From Chloroflexota bacterium (GTDB taxonomy: Bacteria > Chloroflexota > Anaerolineae > Anaerolineales > Villigracilaceae), in contig JACRBN010000004.1 in NCBI GenBank assembly GCA_016213105.1, forward strand, positions 62,001 through 126,000: 64,000 bases of DNA, in the 5' to 3' direction. Below, in pieces: positions 45,753-54,464 of this stretch. Under the pieces are notes generated by a model. That model saw only the letters and a list, made by a program, of their open reading frames with translations, was not told the origin of the DNA and did not search any database. Numbering within the stretch: position 1 is the stretch's first letter; every line of letters starts with the position of its first letter. A program made the translations under genes and the position numbers.

Positions 45753-46331
45753 ATGCCACTCGAACATGCCATTCTCGCTTTTATCGAATACCAACCCATG
45801 TCTGGCTACGACCTGAAGAAATTCTTCGATGTGTCGGTAGCCCACTTCTGGTCGGCCACCCAGAGCCACATTTACAAGTCCCTAGAAGGTCTGGAGAAAA
45901 AAGGCTGGGCGGAAGCCCGCGTCATCCAGCAGGATGGCAAGCCGAACCGCAAGGAATACCAGATCACGGACGAAGGCCGCGCCGAACTGCGCCGCTGGAT
46001 GGTCACCCCCCTGCCGATGGATCCCGTCCGCGAGGCGAGTCTCATCCAGATCTTCTTCTCACACTTCAGCAGCAACGAGCAGATCGCCGCGCTGTTGGAA
46101 GCCCGCATGCAGGAAATTCGTGAGCACCTGTATATCCTGCGCACTTCGGCGCAAGCCGCGATCAACGAAAATGCACAGCGAATCAGCATCGAGCGCGCCC
46201 GTCAACTCTGGCAGATCACTCTCGATTATGGGATTGATTATTACGAATTCGAACTGGCCTGGTACGAGAAGACTCTGGAGACCGTCCGCAACCTTCCGCC
46301 CCTGATGCCGCCAAATCTACCCTCACCCTAG
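45753..46331 (+). CDS. PadR-family transcriptional regulator
   Basis: 192 residues. The N-terminal winged helix starts MPLEHAILAFIEYQPMSGYDLKKFFD with the ATQSHIYKSLEGLEKKGW recognition region and wing EYQITDEGRAELRRW. The C-terminal half is the long-helical dimerisation domain (Vir_act_alpha_C type). It is the first gene after a strong promoter and precedes a 9-kb run of co-directional genes, so it is the likely local regulator, usually a repressor relieved by a ligand. Ribosome site AAAAGGAAC. Confidence 0.92.
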   Translation: MPLEHAILAFIEYQPMSGYDLKKFFDVSVAHFWSATQSHIYKSLEGLEKKGWAEARVIQQDGKPNRKEYQITDEGRAELRRWMVTPLPMDPVREASLIQIFFSHFSSNEQIAALLEARMQEIREHLYILRTSAQAAINENAQRISIERARQLWQITLDYGIDYYEFELAWYEKTLETVRNLPPLMPPNLPSP

Positions 46332-47092: not shown

Positions 47093-47941
47093 ATGACTCA
47101 AAAAATTCTCGTCATCGGCGCGGCTGGCTTCGTCGGCGCCCCCATCGCAAAGCGACTTCTGGCAGACGGCTTTTCCGTCCGCGCACTCGTCCGCAACGCA
47201 GACAAGGCTCGCCAAATGCTGGGCGACCAGGTTGAACTCATCGTCGGCAATTTCACGGACAAAACCACACTCGAAAAAGCCCTCGCAGGCGTGGACGGAG
47301 TCAATCTCAGTGTGCCGTGGCAATCGGAAGCGCAAGTCGCTCGCGATGTGACTGACATCCTCGCCGCGCAGGGACGCAGGAACGTCCGCGTCACCTACAT
47401 CTCTGGCACCACCGCCCTGCCCGAAAATCGCTGGTATCCGATGATCGATGAAAAACTCAAAGCGGAAGAAGCGCTGACCAAGAGCGGCGTCGCGTACACC
47501 ATCTTCCGCCCCAGTTGGTTCATAGACGCGCTGGCGCTCTTCGTGCGCGATGGACGGGCGACGGTTTTCGGCAAGCAGAAACAGCCCTATTATTTCCTCG
47601 CCGTAGCGGACTTTGCCCGCGCAGTTTCCAAATCCTATCAGACCGAAGAAGCCGCCAACAAAACCTTCGTCATCAACGGACCGAAAGCCATGCTCATGCA
47701 GGACGCGCTCCAGCAATACTGTGACGTTGTCTACCCTGGAGTCAAAGCCGCGACCATGCCGACCTGGTTTGGCAACATGCTGGCGGCGATGATGAAAAGC
47801 GCGACCATGAAGGACTTTGTCCAAATGATGGCATATTTTGAAAAGTCACCCAAAGTCACCGCGCCCAACGGCGCGGAAAAAATCCTCGGCGCGTCCAGCA
47901 CCACATTGGAAGAATGGCTCAAGACCCAGAAAAAGGCATAA
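47093..47941 (+). CDS. NmrA-like NAD(P)-binding protein
   Basis: 282 residues. The N-terminal Rossmann motif is ILVIGAAGFVGAPIAKRLLADGF, followed by VRALVRNADKARQMLG and the NmrA-type segment VRVTYISGTTAL. Members reduce quinones or azo compounds or sense NADP. A second paralogue ends the same gene run at 54709-55575. Ribosome site AAAGGAAAATAAATC. It starts 31 bp after the DUF1295 gene. Confidence 0.88.
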   Translation: MTQKILVIGAAGFVGAPIAKRLLADGFSVRALVRNADKARQMLGDQVELIVGNFTDKTTLEKALAGVDGVNLSVPWQSEAQVARDVTDILAAQGRRNVRVTYISGTTALPENRWYPMIDEKLKAEEALTKSGVAYTIFRPSWFIDALALFVRDGRATVFGKQKQPYYFLAVADFARAVSKSYQTEEAANKTFVINGPKAMLMQDALQQYCDVVYPGVKAATMPTWFGNMLAAMMKSATMKDFVQMMAYFEKSPKVTAPNGAEKILGASSTTLEEWLKTQKKA

Positions 47942-47952
47942 GGAAAAACATA

Positions 47953-50070
47953 ATGGAAAAATTTGACGTAGTTATCATCGGCGCAGGTCTGGGAGGGCTC
48001 AGCGCCGCGGGATACCTCGCAAAGGCGGGGAAGAAAGTTCTTGTGCTCGAGCATCACACCGTCCCTGGCGGATATGCTCACGAGTTTCGGCGCGGAAAGT
48101 ATCGCTTCGAAGTTGCCCTGCACGCCCTCGATGGCGCTGCGCCTGGCGGTTGGTCGTATCCCATTCTCAAAGATTTGGAAGTGTTCGATCAGGTTCACTT
48201 CCACCGCATTGATCCTTTCTACTCGGTTCAGTTTCCCAAACAGAAAGTTGTGGCGTCTGCCGACTTGATGATATACGAGTCCGAACTGGTGAAGCACTTC
48301 CCGCACGAGCGCGATGGCATTCACAAGATCATCGCCGACATGGTGGAAACCTATTGGCAGGTGCGCCGCTTCGACGCGGAAGGTCAGTTGGGCATTCGTC
48401 CGCCGTTGGAAAAAATGCCCATACTCTATCCAAAAATGCTGGCAGCCATGACCATTTCACTGGAAGAATACATGAGCCAGTTCATTCAGGATAGCGAACT
48501 CAAGTCAGTCTTCACCACGCTCTGGGGCTACTACGGACTGCCGCCCGAAAAACTGAACGCCGCCATTTTTATTTTCCCCTGGGTCAGTTTTCACCTGATG
48601 GGCGCGTACTACCCCGAAGGCGGCAGCATGGCGATCAGCCGCGCGATGGAAGCCACGTTGAAAAAATTCGGCGGGGAGATCCGCTACAAGGAAACAGTCA
48701 ACAAGATCGAGATTAAGGATGGACGCGCGGTGGCAGTCATCACCGAGAAGGGATTGCGCGTCGAAGCAGATGTCATCATCAGCAACGCGAATTCTCCCGA
48801 CACAATGCTCAAGTTCGTTGGGCGCGAGCATCTGCCCGCTGATTATGTGCGCGGCATTGAAGAAGCCAAACCATCTATTTCGAATTTCGTGCTTTACCTC
48901 GGTTTGGATCGCGACCTGCAAGCCGAAGGTTATACCGATCACGAAATATTTGTGCGGGATAGTTACGACAGCAACGCAGGTTATCAAGCCGCGCTGGACG
49001 GTGACTTCGCCAACGCTGGGCTTTCGATCACCAACTACAGCATCGCCGATCACGGCAGTGCGCCCGAAGGTGGAACGGTCTTGAATATTTTTGCGCTCGC
49101 CGATTGGAACAGTGACAATCAATGGGGCACGGGCGGCAACCTTGAAAACTACAGCGACAATCCGCAGTACAACGAGTTGAAGAAAGCCGCGACCGAAATT
49201 CTTCTCGACCGCACCGAAAAACTCATCCCAGGCTTGCGCAAATCGATCAAGTACATCGAAGTTGCCACGCCCATCACCAACTGGCGTTACAGCCTCAACG
49301 TCGGCGGCGCGATCTACGGCAGCGATCAAACCGTCGAGAACGCGCACGGCGGTCGCTTGAGCGCGCAGACGCCCATCAAAAATCTTTTCCTCGCAGGCGC
49401 GTGGACGTTTGGCGGCGGCATGAGCGCGGCAATGCTTTCAGGTCGCGATACCTCGCGCATGGTGATCGGACACTTGGACGGCACCGAAGTCGTTTTGATG
49501 GCTGCGCCCAGCATGGATGTGGAAGATGAAACCCCGCTTCCCACCCCGCCGACAATTGCTCCCGTCAAACAGACAATGGTCAACGCCTCAGCCTCTTCCA
49601 CCTCCGCCCCAGCCGTGACCCTCAAAACCTCAGGCTCTGGACGCGAAGTTACGCTCAACGCCATCGGCAAACGCAGTGTGCTCATCTTCCACACCGCCGA
49701 CACTTCCGAAGACGCGGAACGAATCAATCAAGCGATCCGCGCGGTTGAAGAATATCAACCCTGCGAATCTGTCACCATCGCCAACGTCGTGGATTTACAT
49801 TCCGTGCCGAAATTGTTCCGCAGTTTCGCCGAGAAATCCATGCGCGAATCTTATGACAAGGCGAGCAAATCCATTCCGCAGGGACAAGACCCGCAAGATT
49901 ATGTCATCATCCTGCCCGATTGGGACGGCAAGGCAACCCAAGGCTTTGGTCTCGGAGACACGAGCAAGGTCGTCGGTCTTGCCGTGCTGGACGCGCAAGG
50001 CTGCGTGGTTGGTACATACCAGGGCGCTGAGCCAGAACTTCACGCGCTGGAATTGTTGAAGAAAATGTAA
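47953..50070 (+). CDS. Phytoene-desaturase/RetSat-like FAD oxidoreductase with thioredoxin-like tail
   Basis: 705 residues from MEKFDVVIIGAGLGGLSAAG. Residues 1-520 form a carotenoid isomerase/retinol-saturase-like flavoprotein: dinucleotide fold, LEHHTVPGGYAHEFRRGKYRFE substrate-entry segment, and a C-terminal FAD motif NLFLAGAWTFGGGMSAAMLSG. After a Ser/Ala/Pro linker, residues about 540-705 form a thioredoxin-like fold (KRSVLIFHTADTSEDAERIN; VVGLAVLDAQGCVVGTYQGAE) without a CxxC pair. It may act on isoprenoid or polyene lipids. The fusion is unusual. Confidence 0.85.
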   Translation: MEKFDVVIIGAGLGGLSAAGYLAKAGKKVLVLEHHTVPGGYAHEFRRGKYRFEVALHALDGAAPGGWSYPILKDLEVFDQVHFHRIDPFYSVQFPKQKVVASADLMIYESELVKHFPHERDGIHKIIADMVETYWQVRRFDAEGQLGIRPPLEKMPILYPKMLAAMTISLEEYMSQFIQDSELKSVFTTLWGYYGLPPEKLNAAIFIFPWVSFHLMGAYYPEGGSMAISRAMEATLKKFGGEIRYKETVNKIEIKDGRAVAVITEKGLRVEADVIISNANSPDTMLKFVGREHLPADYVRGIEEAKPSISNFVLYLGLDRDLQAEGYTDHEIFVRDSYDSNAGYQAALDGDFANAGLSITNYSIADHGSAPEGGTVLNIFALADWNSDNQWGTGGNLENYSDNPQYNELKKAATEILLDRTEKLIPGLRKSIKYIEVATPITNWRYSLNVGGAIYGSDQTVENAHGGRLSAQTPIKNLFLAGAWTFGGGMSAAMLSGRDTSRMVIGHLDGTEVVLMAAPSMDVEDETPLPTPPTIAPVKQTMVNASASSTSAPAVTLKTSGSGREVTLNAIGKRSVLIFHTADTSEDAERINQAIRAVEEYQPCESVTIANVVDLHSVPKLFRSFAEKSMRESYDKASKSIPQGQDPQDYVIILPDWDGKATQGFGLGDTSKVVGLAVLDAQGCVVGTYQGAEPELHALELLKKM

Positions 50071-50127: not shown

Positions 50128-50550
50128 ATGAACAATTTCATCACCATTCTGCGTTGGGTAGCAAGAATCATCAGCATATTAGCAATTTTGCTGTTCGGCT
50201 TGATGTTCCTGCAAGATGGACTGCCTCTCTTCCTGTTTGCGGACGATGATCCTGAACTTGCGTTTCACATGTGGGCATTGTTTGGAATGCTGATCAGTTT
50301 GGGACTAGGTTGGAAGTGGGAAGGTCTCTCCGCCGCGCTGACCTTGCTTTTCTTCATTGCGGATGAGATCGCCCTGCTGATCTATGGTCTCAGAACTATT
50401 GGGTTGCCCAACGGACTCGTCATGCCGCTCTCCGCTCTCTCTTTCCCCTTCATCCTCTTTCCACTGGGCGGAGTGTTTTATCTCATCAGTTGGGCGTGGA
50501 AAAAATCTGCACAGGCAAAATTGAAAATTGATGTCACTCCCAGTGAATAG
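50128..50550 (+). CDS. Four-helix membrane protein of the PadR run
   Basis: 140 residues with four hydrophobic helices (IISILAILLFGLMFL; MWALFGMLISLGLGW; LSAALTLLFFIADEIALLIY; LSFPFILFPLGGVFYLISWAW). No catalytic motif. The ribosome site is CAAGGAAAATC. It starts 57 bp after the FAD oxidoreductase and ends 24 bp before the SCP2-Lnt gene. Function unknown. Confidence 0.75.
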   Translation: MNNFITILRWVARIISILAILLFGLMFLQDGLPLFLFADDDPELAFHMWALFGMLISLGLGWKWEGLSAALTLLFFIADEIALLIYGLRTIGLPNGLVMPLSALSFPFILFPLGGVFYLISWAWKKSAQAKLKIDVTPSE

Positions 50551-50574
50551 CAACAAACAAAGGAACAACCCATC

Positions 50575-53007
50575 ATGAACATTCCAAAAGACCTAAATCT
50601 TCGCCAAACTCTTGAAGGTATGACGTTGACCTTCGACGCGAATGTCATCCCCAACCTCAAGGCGATCATCCAATTTGATGTAAGCGGAAAAGAAGCGGGC
50701 GTCTATCATCTCCGCATTGAAAACGGCGAATGCTATTTTCACGAAGGCGCCGCCAGCGAACCGACCATGACGATCATCACACCGTCAGAAGTGTGGATGA
50801 AAATCAGCAACGGCGAGATGACTGGCTACGAAGCCTTAATGCAGGAACTCTATACCGCCACGGGTGATCTGGAACTGCTGATGAAAATGGGTGACCTGTT
50901 CAAGAGCGCAGACAAAGTCGTCTACGAAGCGCCGCCTTCCCAACGCCCAGGCGGATTCATCTCCCTGCCAGGCATGGCATGGATGACGGTCGCCTTCATC
51001 CCGTGGATTATCCACTGGAGTACCTTCGACATCCCAAGAGTCAGTCATTGGATCAGCGTTGGGATTCCGCTGTTTATCTCCGCGCTGATCGTGGCGTATC
51101 GCTTTATCTTCAGCCGCCCCAATTCCCAATCACCAATTACCAATCTCCAACCTCCAACTTTCATGGAATGGGGCGGACTTGGGTTCTTCGTCATGTCTGC
51201 TGGGCTGGCACTTACGGGAAGCGAAGGATATTCCAAATGGGGTTCCATCGTCAGTAGTGTGGCGATGGCTGCGCTTTGGTTCAGCAGTTTGCTGATTTCC
51301 AAAATACCGCTCTCGGGTGAATATTCCAAATGGGGTTTCATCAAAGCGATGTGGCGCAACGGCATGTTCATCTATCCCAATGCAGTCATTAGCCTGATGT
51401 GGGGTTGGCAGTTCATCTTCGCATCAACGCTGGGCATTGCCGCCATTCTTCTTCCCGACCAAAAACTGGTCTTCACTCTAGCCCGCTATCTTTTGCTCGT
51501 TCCCGCATTTATCTTTACATCCACCTACCAGAAACGCGTCCCCATCAGCAACCCCAAATTTTCTGAATCGCAACTCCGCTTTTGGGCAGGCATGGGACTC
51601 TCCGCCGTTTCAGGTTTTCTACTAGCCGCGTCCATGCCTGGGTTCGACGTCCCCTTCATCGGCTGGGTCGCGCTCGTTCCGCTGTTGATCGTCCTCCCCT
51701 ACGCCGAATCCAAACACGTTTATCCGCTGGCTCTGCCGTTTGGCGTTGTCTTTTCCATCGGCGTCCACAACTGGTATCCAAATATTTTTCCGCCAGCGCT
51801 TGGATATTTTCTCATCATCGCCGTGGGAGCATTTTATGCAAGCATGCTTCAACTTGGCGACTGGCTTTACTCGCGCCTGCCCGTCGCATTCAAAATTCTT
51901 GCGTTCCCTGTCGCCTGGTCGGCAATTGAATTTGTCAAATACATCACGCCCGTCGCGGAAGATTGGTGGTTCGTCCTTTTAGCAAACAGCCAGTGGCGCT
52001 TTCCATCCGCGCTGCAAATCTTGAGCATGACTGGCGTTTTTGGATTGAGCTTCCTCGTGATGTTGGTCAACGTGGCGATTGCGTTTCTTTTGATGAAAAA
52101 ATCCACGCGCGCCAGCCTGATCACTCTCGGTCTTTCCGCGCTGATAGTTGGTGCGGGCGCGATCAGCATTCCCCAGCCTGAGAACACATTCAAAGTCGCC
52201 GTCATCACCGATATGATTTACCAACTGCCACTCGTCAGCGGACAGGGAGAATTTGCAGGCACACTCGTTCAATCGCCCGAAGTGTCGCAAGCCATCTTCG
52301 ACGCCGACGCGGAGTTGACCCGTCAGGCAGCGGCGGAACAACCCGCATATATTGTCTGGCCTGAAAATGAATTCACCAACGCAGACGATCCGCAATTCAT
52401 GGATCAATTGAGTGCATTGGTTGGCGAAACCAATGCCTACTTCACCGTGGACACAGCCTGGAATGCCCCGACAGGTTTACACGACACGGCTGTTCTGGTT
52501 GGCCCCGATGGGAACGAGATTGGACGCCGTGCCAAAATTAACCTCGTCTCTGGCGAGATAGACGCAGGCTTTACGCCTGGCCCGCGTGAGTTCCCCGTCT
52601 TTGATACGCCCAACGCAAAAGTTGGCATCTCCATCTGTTGGGATGTTCATCGCCTGTGGATCATGCGCGAATTGGCACGCTTTGGCGCAGAGATCGTCCT
52701 CCTGCCAATGGACAACGACTTCAACGGCGTCGCCACCTTCCCCCCGTTCCACGCCGCCGACGCAGTCTTCCGCGCCGCAGAGAATCATTTGGCGTTTGGG
52801 CTTGGCACAGTCAACGGACTCTCGATGGTCATTGATCCATACGGAAGAATCACCGCCGAAGGAAAGGTCAACGAAAAAGGTGTGACCATCGGTGAGACAT
52901 TTGTCGTCAACGACCAAACCCTCTACACCCGTTTCGGCGATTGGTTCGGCTGGACAATGGCGGCTGTGTTGGTTATCCTTGTCTCAATTTCAATTTTGAA
53001 AAAATAG
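50575..53007 (+). CDS. SCP2 sterol-carrier domain fused to an apolipoprotein N-acyltransferase-like enzyme
   Basis: 810 residues. Residues 1-120 are an SCP2 lipid-binding domain (LKAIIQFDVSGKEAGVYHLR; ENGECYFHEGAASEPTMTI; KISNGEMTGYEALMQ). About ten membrane helices follow (130-540), the later ones resembling the Lnt membrane part. Residues about 541-790 form a nitrilase-superfamily domain with E597 (VWPENE), K654 (AKINLV) and C688 (ISICWDVHR), the Glu-Lys-Cys triad of Lnt-type acyltransferases. A repeat-derived SRPNSQSPITNLQPP loop lies between helices. It may acylate lipoproteins or another amine; the fused lipid carrier is atypical. Confidence 0.85.
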   Translation: MNIPKDLNLRQTLEGMTLTFDANVIPNLKAIIQFDVSGKEAGVYHLRIENGECYFHEGAASEPTMTIITPSEVWMKISNGEMTGYEALMQELYTATGDLELLMKMGDLFKSADKVVYEAPPSQRPGGFISLPGMAWMTVAFIPWIIHWSTFDIPRVSHWISVGIPLFISALIVAYRFIFSRPNSQSPITNLQPPTFMEWGGLGFFVMSAGLALTGSEGYSKWGSIVSSVAMAALWFSSLLISKIPLSGEYSKWGFIKAMWRNGMFIYPNAVISLMWGWQFIFASTLGIAAILLPDQKLVFTLARYLLLVPAFIFTSTYQKRVPISNPKFSESQLRFWAGMGLSAVSGFLLAASMPGFDVPFIGWVALVPLLIVLPYAESKHVYPLALPFGVVFSIGVHNWYPNIFPPALGYFLIIAVGAFYASMLQLGDWLYSRLPVAFKILAFPVAWSAIEFVKYITPVAEDWWFVLLANSQWRFPSALQILSMTGVFGLSFLVMLVNVAIAFLLMKKSTRASLITLGLSALIVGAGAISIPQPENTFKVAVITDMIYQLPLVSGQGEFAGTLVQSPEVSQAIFDADAELTRQAAAEQPAYIVWPENEFTNADDPQFMDQLSALVGETNAYFTVDTAWNAPTGLHDTAVLVGPDGNEIGRRAKINLVSGEIDAGFTPGPREFPVFDTPNAKVGISICWDVHRLWIMRELARFGAEIVLLPMDNDFNGVATFPPFHAADAVFRAAENHLAFGLGTVNGLSMVIDPYGRITAEGKVNEKGVTIGETFVVNDQTLYTRFGDWFGWTMAAVLVILVSISILKK
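51117..51160 (+). repeat. In-frame CCAATC-type repeat inside the SCP2-Lnt gene
   Basis: Serial words CCCAATT, CCCAATC, ACCAATT, ACCAATC, TCCAACC, TCCAACT encode an Asn/Pro/Ser-rich loop between two membrane helices. Similar in style to 35160-35203. Confidence 0.65.
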
Positions 53008-53017
53008 GAAGTAAACC

Positions 53018-53746
53018 TTGAACAATCCTGCTCCAAAATCCAACCGCCTCTGGTGGACTCTGCTCGCCGCGCCGATTCTCGCGCTGGTTTTGATTGTCCT
53101 CGCGTCCGTTTATTTTGGCTTCGTCACACAGGGCAAAGACCCCGCGGCGATTCCTCAACTCGTCGCAGACTCCACACCCTATCAACTGGTGGCGCTGCAA
53201 ATCTGGCTGCTCCTCATCCTGATGAAAACCATGAAGCGCGAAGGTCTCTCGTGGAAAGACATCGGCTGGAAACTTCAAGACGGTCAACAACTTTGGCGTG
53301 AGATTCTCATCGGCGCCATTCCTGGTGTTGTGATTGTCCTGCTTTACTTTTTCGTCCTCACCCCCGTCCTCGTCAGCCTGCAAAACATTTGGGATTACGT
53401 CCCCGCTGGCTCCGTGCTGACCGCGCTCGGCGCATCGCTCATCCCCTTCGCCATCGCGGATGTGCTTCTCGCGCCCTTCGTCGAAGAAAGCATTTATCGT
53501 GGCTATGGGCTCACTCGCCTGCTCGAAAGATTTGGTCAACCCGCCGCCATCGCCATTTCGGTTTTCTTCTTCGGCATCCTTCACTGGACGGGCGGATTTT
53601 GGTACATCGTGTTGGTGGGACTTGTCGCGGGCGTCCCCTTCGCATACTTGCGTGTCACGCGAAAAAATGTCATCGCGCCGTTTGCCGCGCATCTGGCATT
53701 GAACCTGCTTGAGACAATTTTCATCATCATCGGGATTGGAGGCTGA
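53018..53746 (+). CDS. CPBP-family intramembrane metalloprotease (1)
   Basis: 242 residues from a TTG start preceded by ATAGGAAGTAAAC; no ATG is available near it. About seven membrane helices. The CPBP (Rce1/CAAX protease-like, Abi) motifs are complete: EESIYRG (E156, E157, R161), FGILHW (H189) and AHLALN (H225, N229). Such proteins cleave membrane substrates including prenylated or lipid-linked peptides. It begins 10 bp after the SCP2-Lnt stop and ends one base before the next CPBP gene. Confidence 0.9.
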   Translation: MNNPAPKSNRLWWTLLAAPILALVLIVLASVYFGFVTQGKDPAAIPQLVADSTPYQLVALQIWLLLILMKTMKREGLSWKDIGWKLQDGQQLWREILIGAIPGVVIVLLYFFVLTPVLVSLQNIWDYVPAGSVLTALGASLIPFAIADVLLAPFVEESIYRGYGLTRLLERFGQPAAIAISVFFFGILHWTGGFWYIVLVGLVAGVPFAYLRVTRKNVIAPFAAHLALNLLETIFIIIGIGG

Positions 53747-53747
53747 T

Positions 53748-54464
53748 ATGACGCCGCTTCTTACCGCCCTGATAGTTGGTCTCGCCGCCGCAGGCATTTT
53801 CGCCCTTCGACCTGTCACCGCCAAAATCAAAACCGTGCTCAACCAAAATTCAGTGGTCGATTTTCAAATTAAATTTCAATCTCTGCAATTGGTCTTGACC
53901 TCCATCGTTCTGCTCCTCATCTATTTCCTCAACCCTGAAAACTTCGCGCGCTTCTTTCGCATGGGAGATGTCAATGTGCATATCAGCAAGATCACATGGC
54001 TCGGAGTCACAGGCAATGAGACCTGGCTGGAGATTGCCACAAGCATTGGCATTTTCATCACACTTGGCACGGCAATATTCATGTTCTTTCAATTAAAAAA
54101 AGCAGGCGTGGACTATCGCTACTTCGTCTTCAGTCTGCTCTGGTCAATTCCATTTTCGATGGCGAATGCCTTTTCAGAAGAAGCCATTTTCAGAATCGGA
54201 ATCGTCTCGCCGCTGTATGGAATTTTCTCGGTGTCCGTCATTGTCCTGATTTCGGGTGTGGTATTCGGCGCACCTCATTATTTCGGAATGCCCAGCGGCG
54301 TGGTCGGCGCACTGATGGCAGGCTTCCTCGGCTGGCTGTTAGCGATGAGTCTCGTCGAAACGCAGGGACTTTTCATCGCGTGGGCAATCCACTTTGTGCA
54401 AGATGTGGTCATCATCACTTCGATGATTTTGATGAGCAAGAAACTTGGCTCTGTCCCCGTATAG
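53748..54464 (+). CDS. CPBP-family intramembrane metalloprotease (2)
   Basis: 238 residues. The ribosome site GGAGG lies inside the end of the preceding gene, showing tight coupling. Motifs EEAIFRIG, FGAPHYFG and IHFVQD correspond to the three CPBP motifs, with Asp in place of the usual final Asn. About seven or eight membrane helices. It is divergent from copy 1, so this is not a recent tandem duplication. Confidence 0.88.
   Translation: MTPLLTALIVGLAAAGIFALRPVTAKIKTVLNQNSVVDFQIKFQSLQLVLTSIVLLLIYFLNPENFARFFRMGDVNVHISKITWLGVTGNETWLEIATSIGIFITLGTAIFMFFQLKKAGVDYRYFVFSLLWSIPFSMANAFSEEAIFRIGIVSPLYGIFSVSVIVLISGVVFGAPHYFGMPSGVVGALMAGFLGWLLAMSLVETQGLFIAWAIHFVQDVVIITSMILMSKKLGSVPV

Follow-up and report, generated by a model that had tools for sequence, protein, structure and literature searches.

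The gene at positions 50575-53007 of the window (the whole stretch of Chloroflexota DNA analysed here, 64,000 nucleotides) raises the question of what a lipid-carrier domain is doing in the same protein as a membrane enzyme resembling apolipoprotein N-acyltransferase (Lnt). The acyl chain that Lnt uses comes from membrane phospholipid. A sequence-only reading of the locus had suggested that a fused carrier could present an acyl donor or acceptor, which raises the matters of whether the parts truly form one gene, what each of them is and on which face of the membrane each is likely to work. The gene and its parts are as follows:

50561-50564, plus strand: likely ribosome-binding site, AGGA, 10 bases 5' of the ATG (direct sequence reading)
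50575-53007, plus strand: gene for the SCP2-YciB-like-Lnt fusion protein, 810 aa, with an ATG start, an intact uninterrupted frame and homologous fusions in L047, L048, L109 and L153
50575-50919, plus strand: SCP2 lipid-carrier domain, aa 1-115 (Pfam PF02036, PDB profile matches, AF2 model)
50965-51540, plus strand: middle domain (MID), a six-helix membrane domain, aa 131-322, distant relative of YciB/IspZ/VC0807 (profile searches, helices)
51571-52179, plus strand: Lnt membrane domain, seven helices, aa 333-535 (PF20154, VIA fold match)
52180-52935, plus strand: nitrilase-fold (CN_hydrolase) catalytic domain, aa 536-787, predicted to lie outside the cytoplasm (PF00795)
52363-52365, plus strand: catalytic E597, equivalent to E. 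coli Lnt E267 (alignment)
52534-52536, plus strand: catalytic K654, equivalent to E. coli Lnt K335 (alignment)
52636-52638, plus strand: catalytic C688, equivalent to E. coli Lnt C387, followed by W689-D690 in place of Y388-E389 (alignment)
52942-52998, plus strand: last membrane helix, aa 790-808 (hydropathy, AF2 model)

The fusion of SCP2 to Lnt is borne out by one intact frame and by the same domain order in independent genomes. Copies span several families of Chloroflexota. Two are complete (L047, 66%; L109, in an 837-aa frame), and two others run to the end of their contigs and stop within the Lnt part after 793 aa (L153) and 675 aa (L048). The copy in L041 enters only the first 24 aa of Lnt and that in L111 includes only part of MID, while L152:6301-8802 carries an in-frame TGA inside MID, and L110 (9398-9729) keeps SCP2-MID but has a frameshifted Lnt start and a decayed Lnt part. 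That an assembly or sequencing artefact joined two genes has a negligible probability: related loci do hold SCP2-MID without Lnt, and Lnt alone, but the same order appears in independent assemblies of several families, and GC3 is even (0.62-0.63) across the three modules of the gene, namely SCP2, the YciB-like middle domain and the Lnt part. A sequencing artefact was accordingly rejected on the SCP2-MID-Lnt order of L047, L109, L153, L048, L041, L152 and L110. As to the number of fusion origins, the Lnt tree requires two changes and the SCP2-MID tree is compatible with one.

Relics were also observed, one joining the start of SCP2 to the Lnt C-terminus (L045:10157-10561) and two holding the Lnt C-terminus only (L035:2985-3284 and L081:1487-1954).

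Among the open-access papers searched, none contained both 'apolipoprotein N-acyltransferase' and 'sterol carrier protein', which agrees, as far as so limited a test goes, with the earlier statement that no SCP2-Lnt protein is known to have been described. The SCP2-YciB-like-Lnt protein is a new architecture built from known parts.

The assignment of the N-terminal 120 residues to SCP2 held in an HMM search, with PF02036 matching aa 26-110 at E=2.8e-10 and 40.9 bits, above the gathering threshold of 21.3. A seven-member profile of the domain retrieves mammalian SCP2 structures at 3e-7 in a PDB profile search. When modelled in isolation with AF2 (pLDDT 84), the domain adopts the SCP2 fold, with VIA Z scores of 13.2 to human SCP-2L (1ikt) and 12.2 to a fatty-acid-bound insect SCP2 (1pz4), and Z 15 to alkylsulfatase SCP2 domains. 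The modelled domain thus resembles ligand-bound SCP2 folds, and lipid binding is predicted.

About ten membrane helices had been proposed before the nitrilase domain, but hydropathy and the AF2 model give 13 before it (six in the middle and seven in the Lnt part) and one after it. The earlier description contained no middle domain, and we found a six-helix module at aa ~130-322. Used as a query, this MID recovered the same domain in other proteins: it is joined N-terminally to a CrtI-like FAD oxidoreductase in L036, L037, L042-L046, L112 and L115, and adjoins SCP2 in L034. An HMM built from non-fusion MID proteins only recovers the MID of the 810-aa protein at 6e-19 (Z=10,000 database size), while decoy membrane domains fail against it. 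VC0807_fam matches 10 of the 17 MID members (best 4e-13) and PF04279 (IspZ) matches seven (best 1e-4), and hhalign aligns MID with E. coli YciB at 88% probability. The MID of the 810-aa protein itself has no PF04279 or VC0807_fam match at E<=1, so its kinship to YciB/IspZ/VC0807, seen through other family members by profile comparison, is a distant one. One MID relative scores 39 bits against VC0807_fam, below the cut-off of 65, and the MID profile had no match among PDB sequences.

SCP2 and MID also travel together. They stand alone in L149 and L151, and likewise in L150, which is cut by the contig end, and they follow an FMN reductase within one protein in L146, L147, L148 and L154. In Ca. 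Desulfatibia vada (L054), a MID-SCP2-FMN reductase gene is directly followed by a separate stand-alone Lnt gene. In L109, L110, L041, L111 and L035, the fusion or what is left of it has as its neighbour an FMN-reductase protein that contains two or three SCP2 domains. Judged by these comparisons, SCP2-MID is a shuffled and reused unit.

Four proteins carry an FMN reductase and then three SCP2 domains (L109:5639-7585, L110:6440-8392, L111:1842-3791 and L041:4160-6193). In the window, the fusion gene lies among the following neighbours:

45753-46331, plus strand: PadR-type regulator; PadR recurs near relatives (profile match, neighbourhoods)
47914-50070, plus strand: CrtI-like FAD oxidoreductase with a C-terminal extension; also adjoins stand-alone Lnt relatives (Pfam, neighbourhoods)
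50128-50550, plus strand: DUF7670 membrane protein, directly upstream of the fusion gene; same neighbour in L040 (Pfam)
53018-53746, plus strand: homologue of CPBP (Rce1-like) membrane proteases, downstream of the fusion gene (Pfam)

A PadR gene is found near most loci of the fusion and of its SCP2-MID or MID relatives. It also adjoins most of the MID-CrtI-like fusions listed above. The C-terminal extension of the CrtI-like protein (~190 aa, 49474-50067) matched no PDB sequence, nor any Pfam family above its cut-off. Two adjacent CPBP homologues lie directly downstream of the fusion gene, at 53018-54464.

The Lnt part matches PF20154 (LNT_N) over aa 346-501 (4.1e-20) and, in the HMM search for CN_hydrolase, PF00795 over aa 579-774 (2.7e-18), both above the Pfam cut-offs. 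Residues 327-808 superpose on E. coli Lnt (8b0k) with VIA at Z 35.2 and an rmsd of 3.6 over 463 aligned residues, with 19% identity, and the protein has the eight-helix membrane domain and nitrilase domain of Lnt; nitrilases and amidases likewise score well by fold against this region. The triad proposed earlier (E597, K654, C688) aligns with E267, K335 and C387 of E. coli Lnt and is kept in every Lnt-part family row covering the position. Besides the triad, W237, E343, Y388 and E389 are essential in Lnt (PMC3850990). In the 810-aa protein Y388 is replaced by W and E389 by D, W237 has no counterpart, and E661, one place short of E343 in the alignment, is probably its equivalent. The score against TIGR00546 is 114.8 bits, below the cut-off of 132.9, as are those of four relatives (79-119). 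In the tree, the Lnt part groups in a separate clade (100/99) that excludes the sampled Lnt sequences. The label 'Lnt-type' therefore stands for fold and triad but fails at the curated cut-off and at the further essential residues; going by these sequence features, the part should be called Lnt-like and not Lnt.

Among 400 genomes of the order, only 7 contain a relative of the Lnt part at E<=1e-40, and we therefore regard the gene as accessory. The source genome has a second Lnt-like gene (L092:6476-7945, G000 contig C7), with CWD at its active cysteine and a score below the Lnt cut-off. A housekeeping Lnt was considered unlikely given the sporadic distribution and this second gene on C7. The genome encodes LspA and has two Lgt matches, all over their own cut-offs, while neither Lnt-like gene reaches that of TIGR00546. 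Two Lnt-part relatives from MAGs labelled Marinosulfonomonas (L050) and Nitratifractor (L055) place among Chloroflexota in the tree, reflecting either mis-binned contigs or transfer.

Whether the carrier could hand a lipid to the enzyme depends on topology. Lysine and arginine are abundant in the MID loops 176-195, 243-257 and 317-328, so both ends of MID are expected in the cytoplasm, and with them the SCP2 domain that precedes it. The six MID helices also appear in the AF2 model, with low confidence in the region. In the FMN-reductase-SCP2-MID proteins, SCP2 is preceded by a nicotinamide-flavin enzyme and followed by the first MID helix, an arrangement that also suggests a cytosolic position, and no export signal was seen on the flavin reductase in the four genomes. 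Lnt itself has its N- and C-terminus on the cytoplasmic side and its active site on the periplasmic side (PMC5500888). SCP2 and C688 are thus predicted, and most likely, to lie on opposite faces of the membrane. The full-length AF2 model has low confidence in SCP2 and MID, which only three alignment rows cover, and is unusable for these domains or their contacts with Lnt, so we avoid docking claims.

Comparison of sequences establishes that the protein has these three domains in this order, that the Glu-Lys-Cys triad is conserved and that SCP2-YciB-like is reused with other enzymes. The explanation we prefer, to which we give an even chance, is that the protein is an accessory membrane acyltransferase of the Lnt fold to which a cytosolic unit for lipid binding and membrane anchoring is attached. 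The Lnt part would work like Lnt, with C688 accepting an acyl chain from an outer-leaflet lipid before its transfer to an amine or some other acceptor. SCP2 would face the cytosol, bind an apolar ligand there and, together with the YciB-like domain, act on the inner leaflet by loading, withdrawing or sensing a lipid, giving no substrate straight to C688. The unit could thereby connect the enzyme on the outer face with the cytosolic flavin enzymes encoded in the same clusters.

The idea first proposed for this protein, direct presentation of an acyl donor or acceptor by SCP2 at the active site of the Lnt part, is attractive in that a lipid-binding fold is covalently linked to a lipid-using enzyme, but the charge pattern, the FMN-reductase fusions and the Lnt topology (PMC5500888) would place the two on opposite faces and make it improbable. 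SCP2-MID is, moreover, missing from many relatives that have the Lnt part, which presumably can function on its own. A stronger contender, possible if doubtful, is that the Lnt-like part is a membrane amidase or lipid hydrolase of the nitrilase superfamily, with SCP2-MID concentrating an apolar substrate or product. Such an activity is conceivable because the protein falls below the TIGR00546 cut-off, has CWD where Lnt has CYE and has lost W237; the separate clade and the good fold scores of nitrilases and amidases point the same way, but the protein retains all of the eight-helix architecture of Lnt (Z 35), an architecture that soluble amidases do not have.

The unit might instead be a scaffold that gathers the enzymes of PadR-linked clusters at the membrane, its lipid binding incidental or lost, as its fusion to unrelated enzymes and the tandem SCP2 copies in FMN-reductase proteins could suggest; since the SCP2 model keeps a ligand-binding fold, we consider this as improbable as direct presentation. 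A bolder proposal, which we regard as rather unlikely but less so than the scaffold, is that SCP2-YciB-like is a mobile lipid-handling unit plugged into either the FMN reductase or the Lnt-like acyltransferase of a PadR-linked cluster, where it would carry one hydrophobic intermediate between cytosolic redox and outer-face acyl transfer, with the YciB-like domain aiding membrane crossing.

Under the preferred reading, an accessory acyltransferase with a cytosolic lipid-binding unit, the fusion matters beyond this locus. The YciB/IspZ family is poorly understood, and a protein that links an Lnt-fold enzyme to a lipid-binding domain in the cytosol via a YciB-like domain would offer a handle on the family's role in lipids, as well as on what Lnt-like paralogues outside lipoprotein maturation acylate. 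With the same unit shuffled onto a flavin reductase, a shared ligand becomes a concrete, testable question.

Among known systems, the Lnt of E. coli and P. aeruginosa (TIGR00546) shares with the fusion the eight-helix membrane domain, the exoplasmic nitrilase domain and the E-K-C triad, whereas the fusion has ~19% identity, a score below the cut-off, W for Y388, D for E389, no W237, extra N-terminal SCP2 and YciB-like domains and a sporadic distribution in place of a housekeeping one. With other proteins of the SCP2 or nonspecific lipid-transfer domain family (PF02036), including the C-terminal domains of alkylsulfatases, it has sequence and predicted fold in common, but here SCP2 is N-terminal to a membrane domain. 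YciB/IspZ (PF04279) and the VC0807 family (NF041646) have a detectable, distant similarity to MID, and a link to membrane fluidity has been described for YciB along with the lipoprotein DcrB (PMC9487459). Mycobacterial Ppm1, like the fusion, is a single protein in which an Lnt domain is combined with another, lipid-related domain (PMC3850990), but there Lnt is followed on its C-terminal side by a polyprenol-phosphate mannose synthase and has no SCP2 domain as its partner, and no YciB-like domain is described in it.
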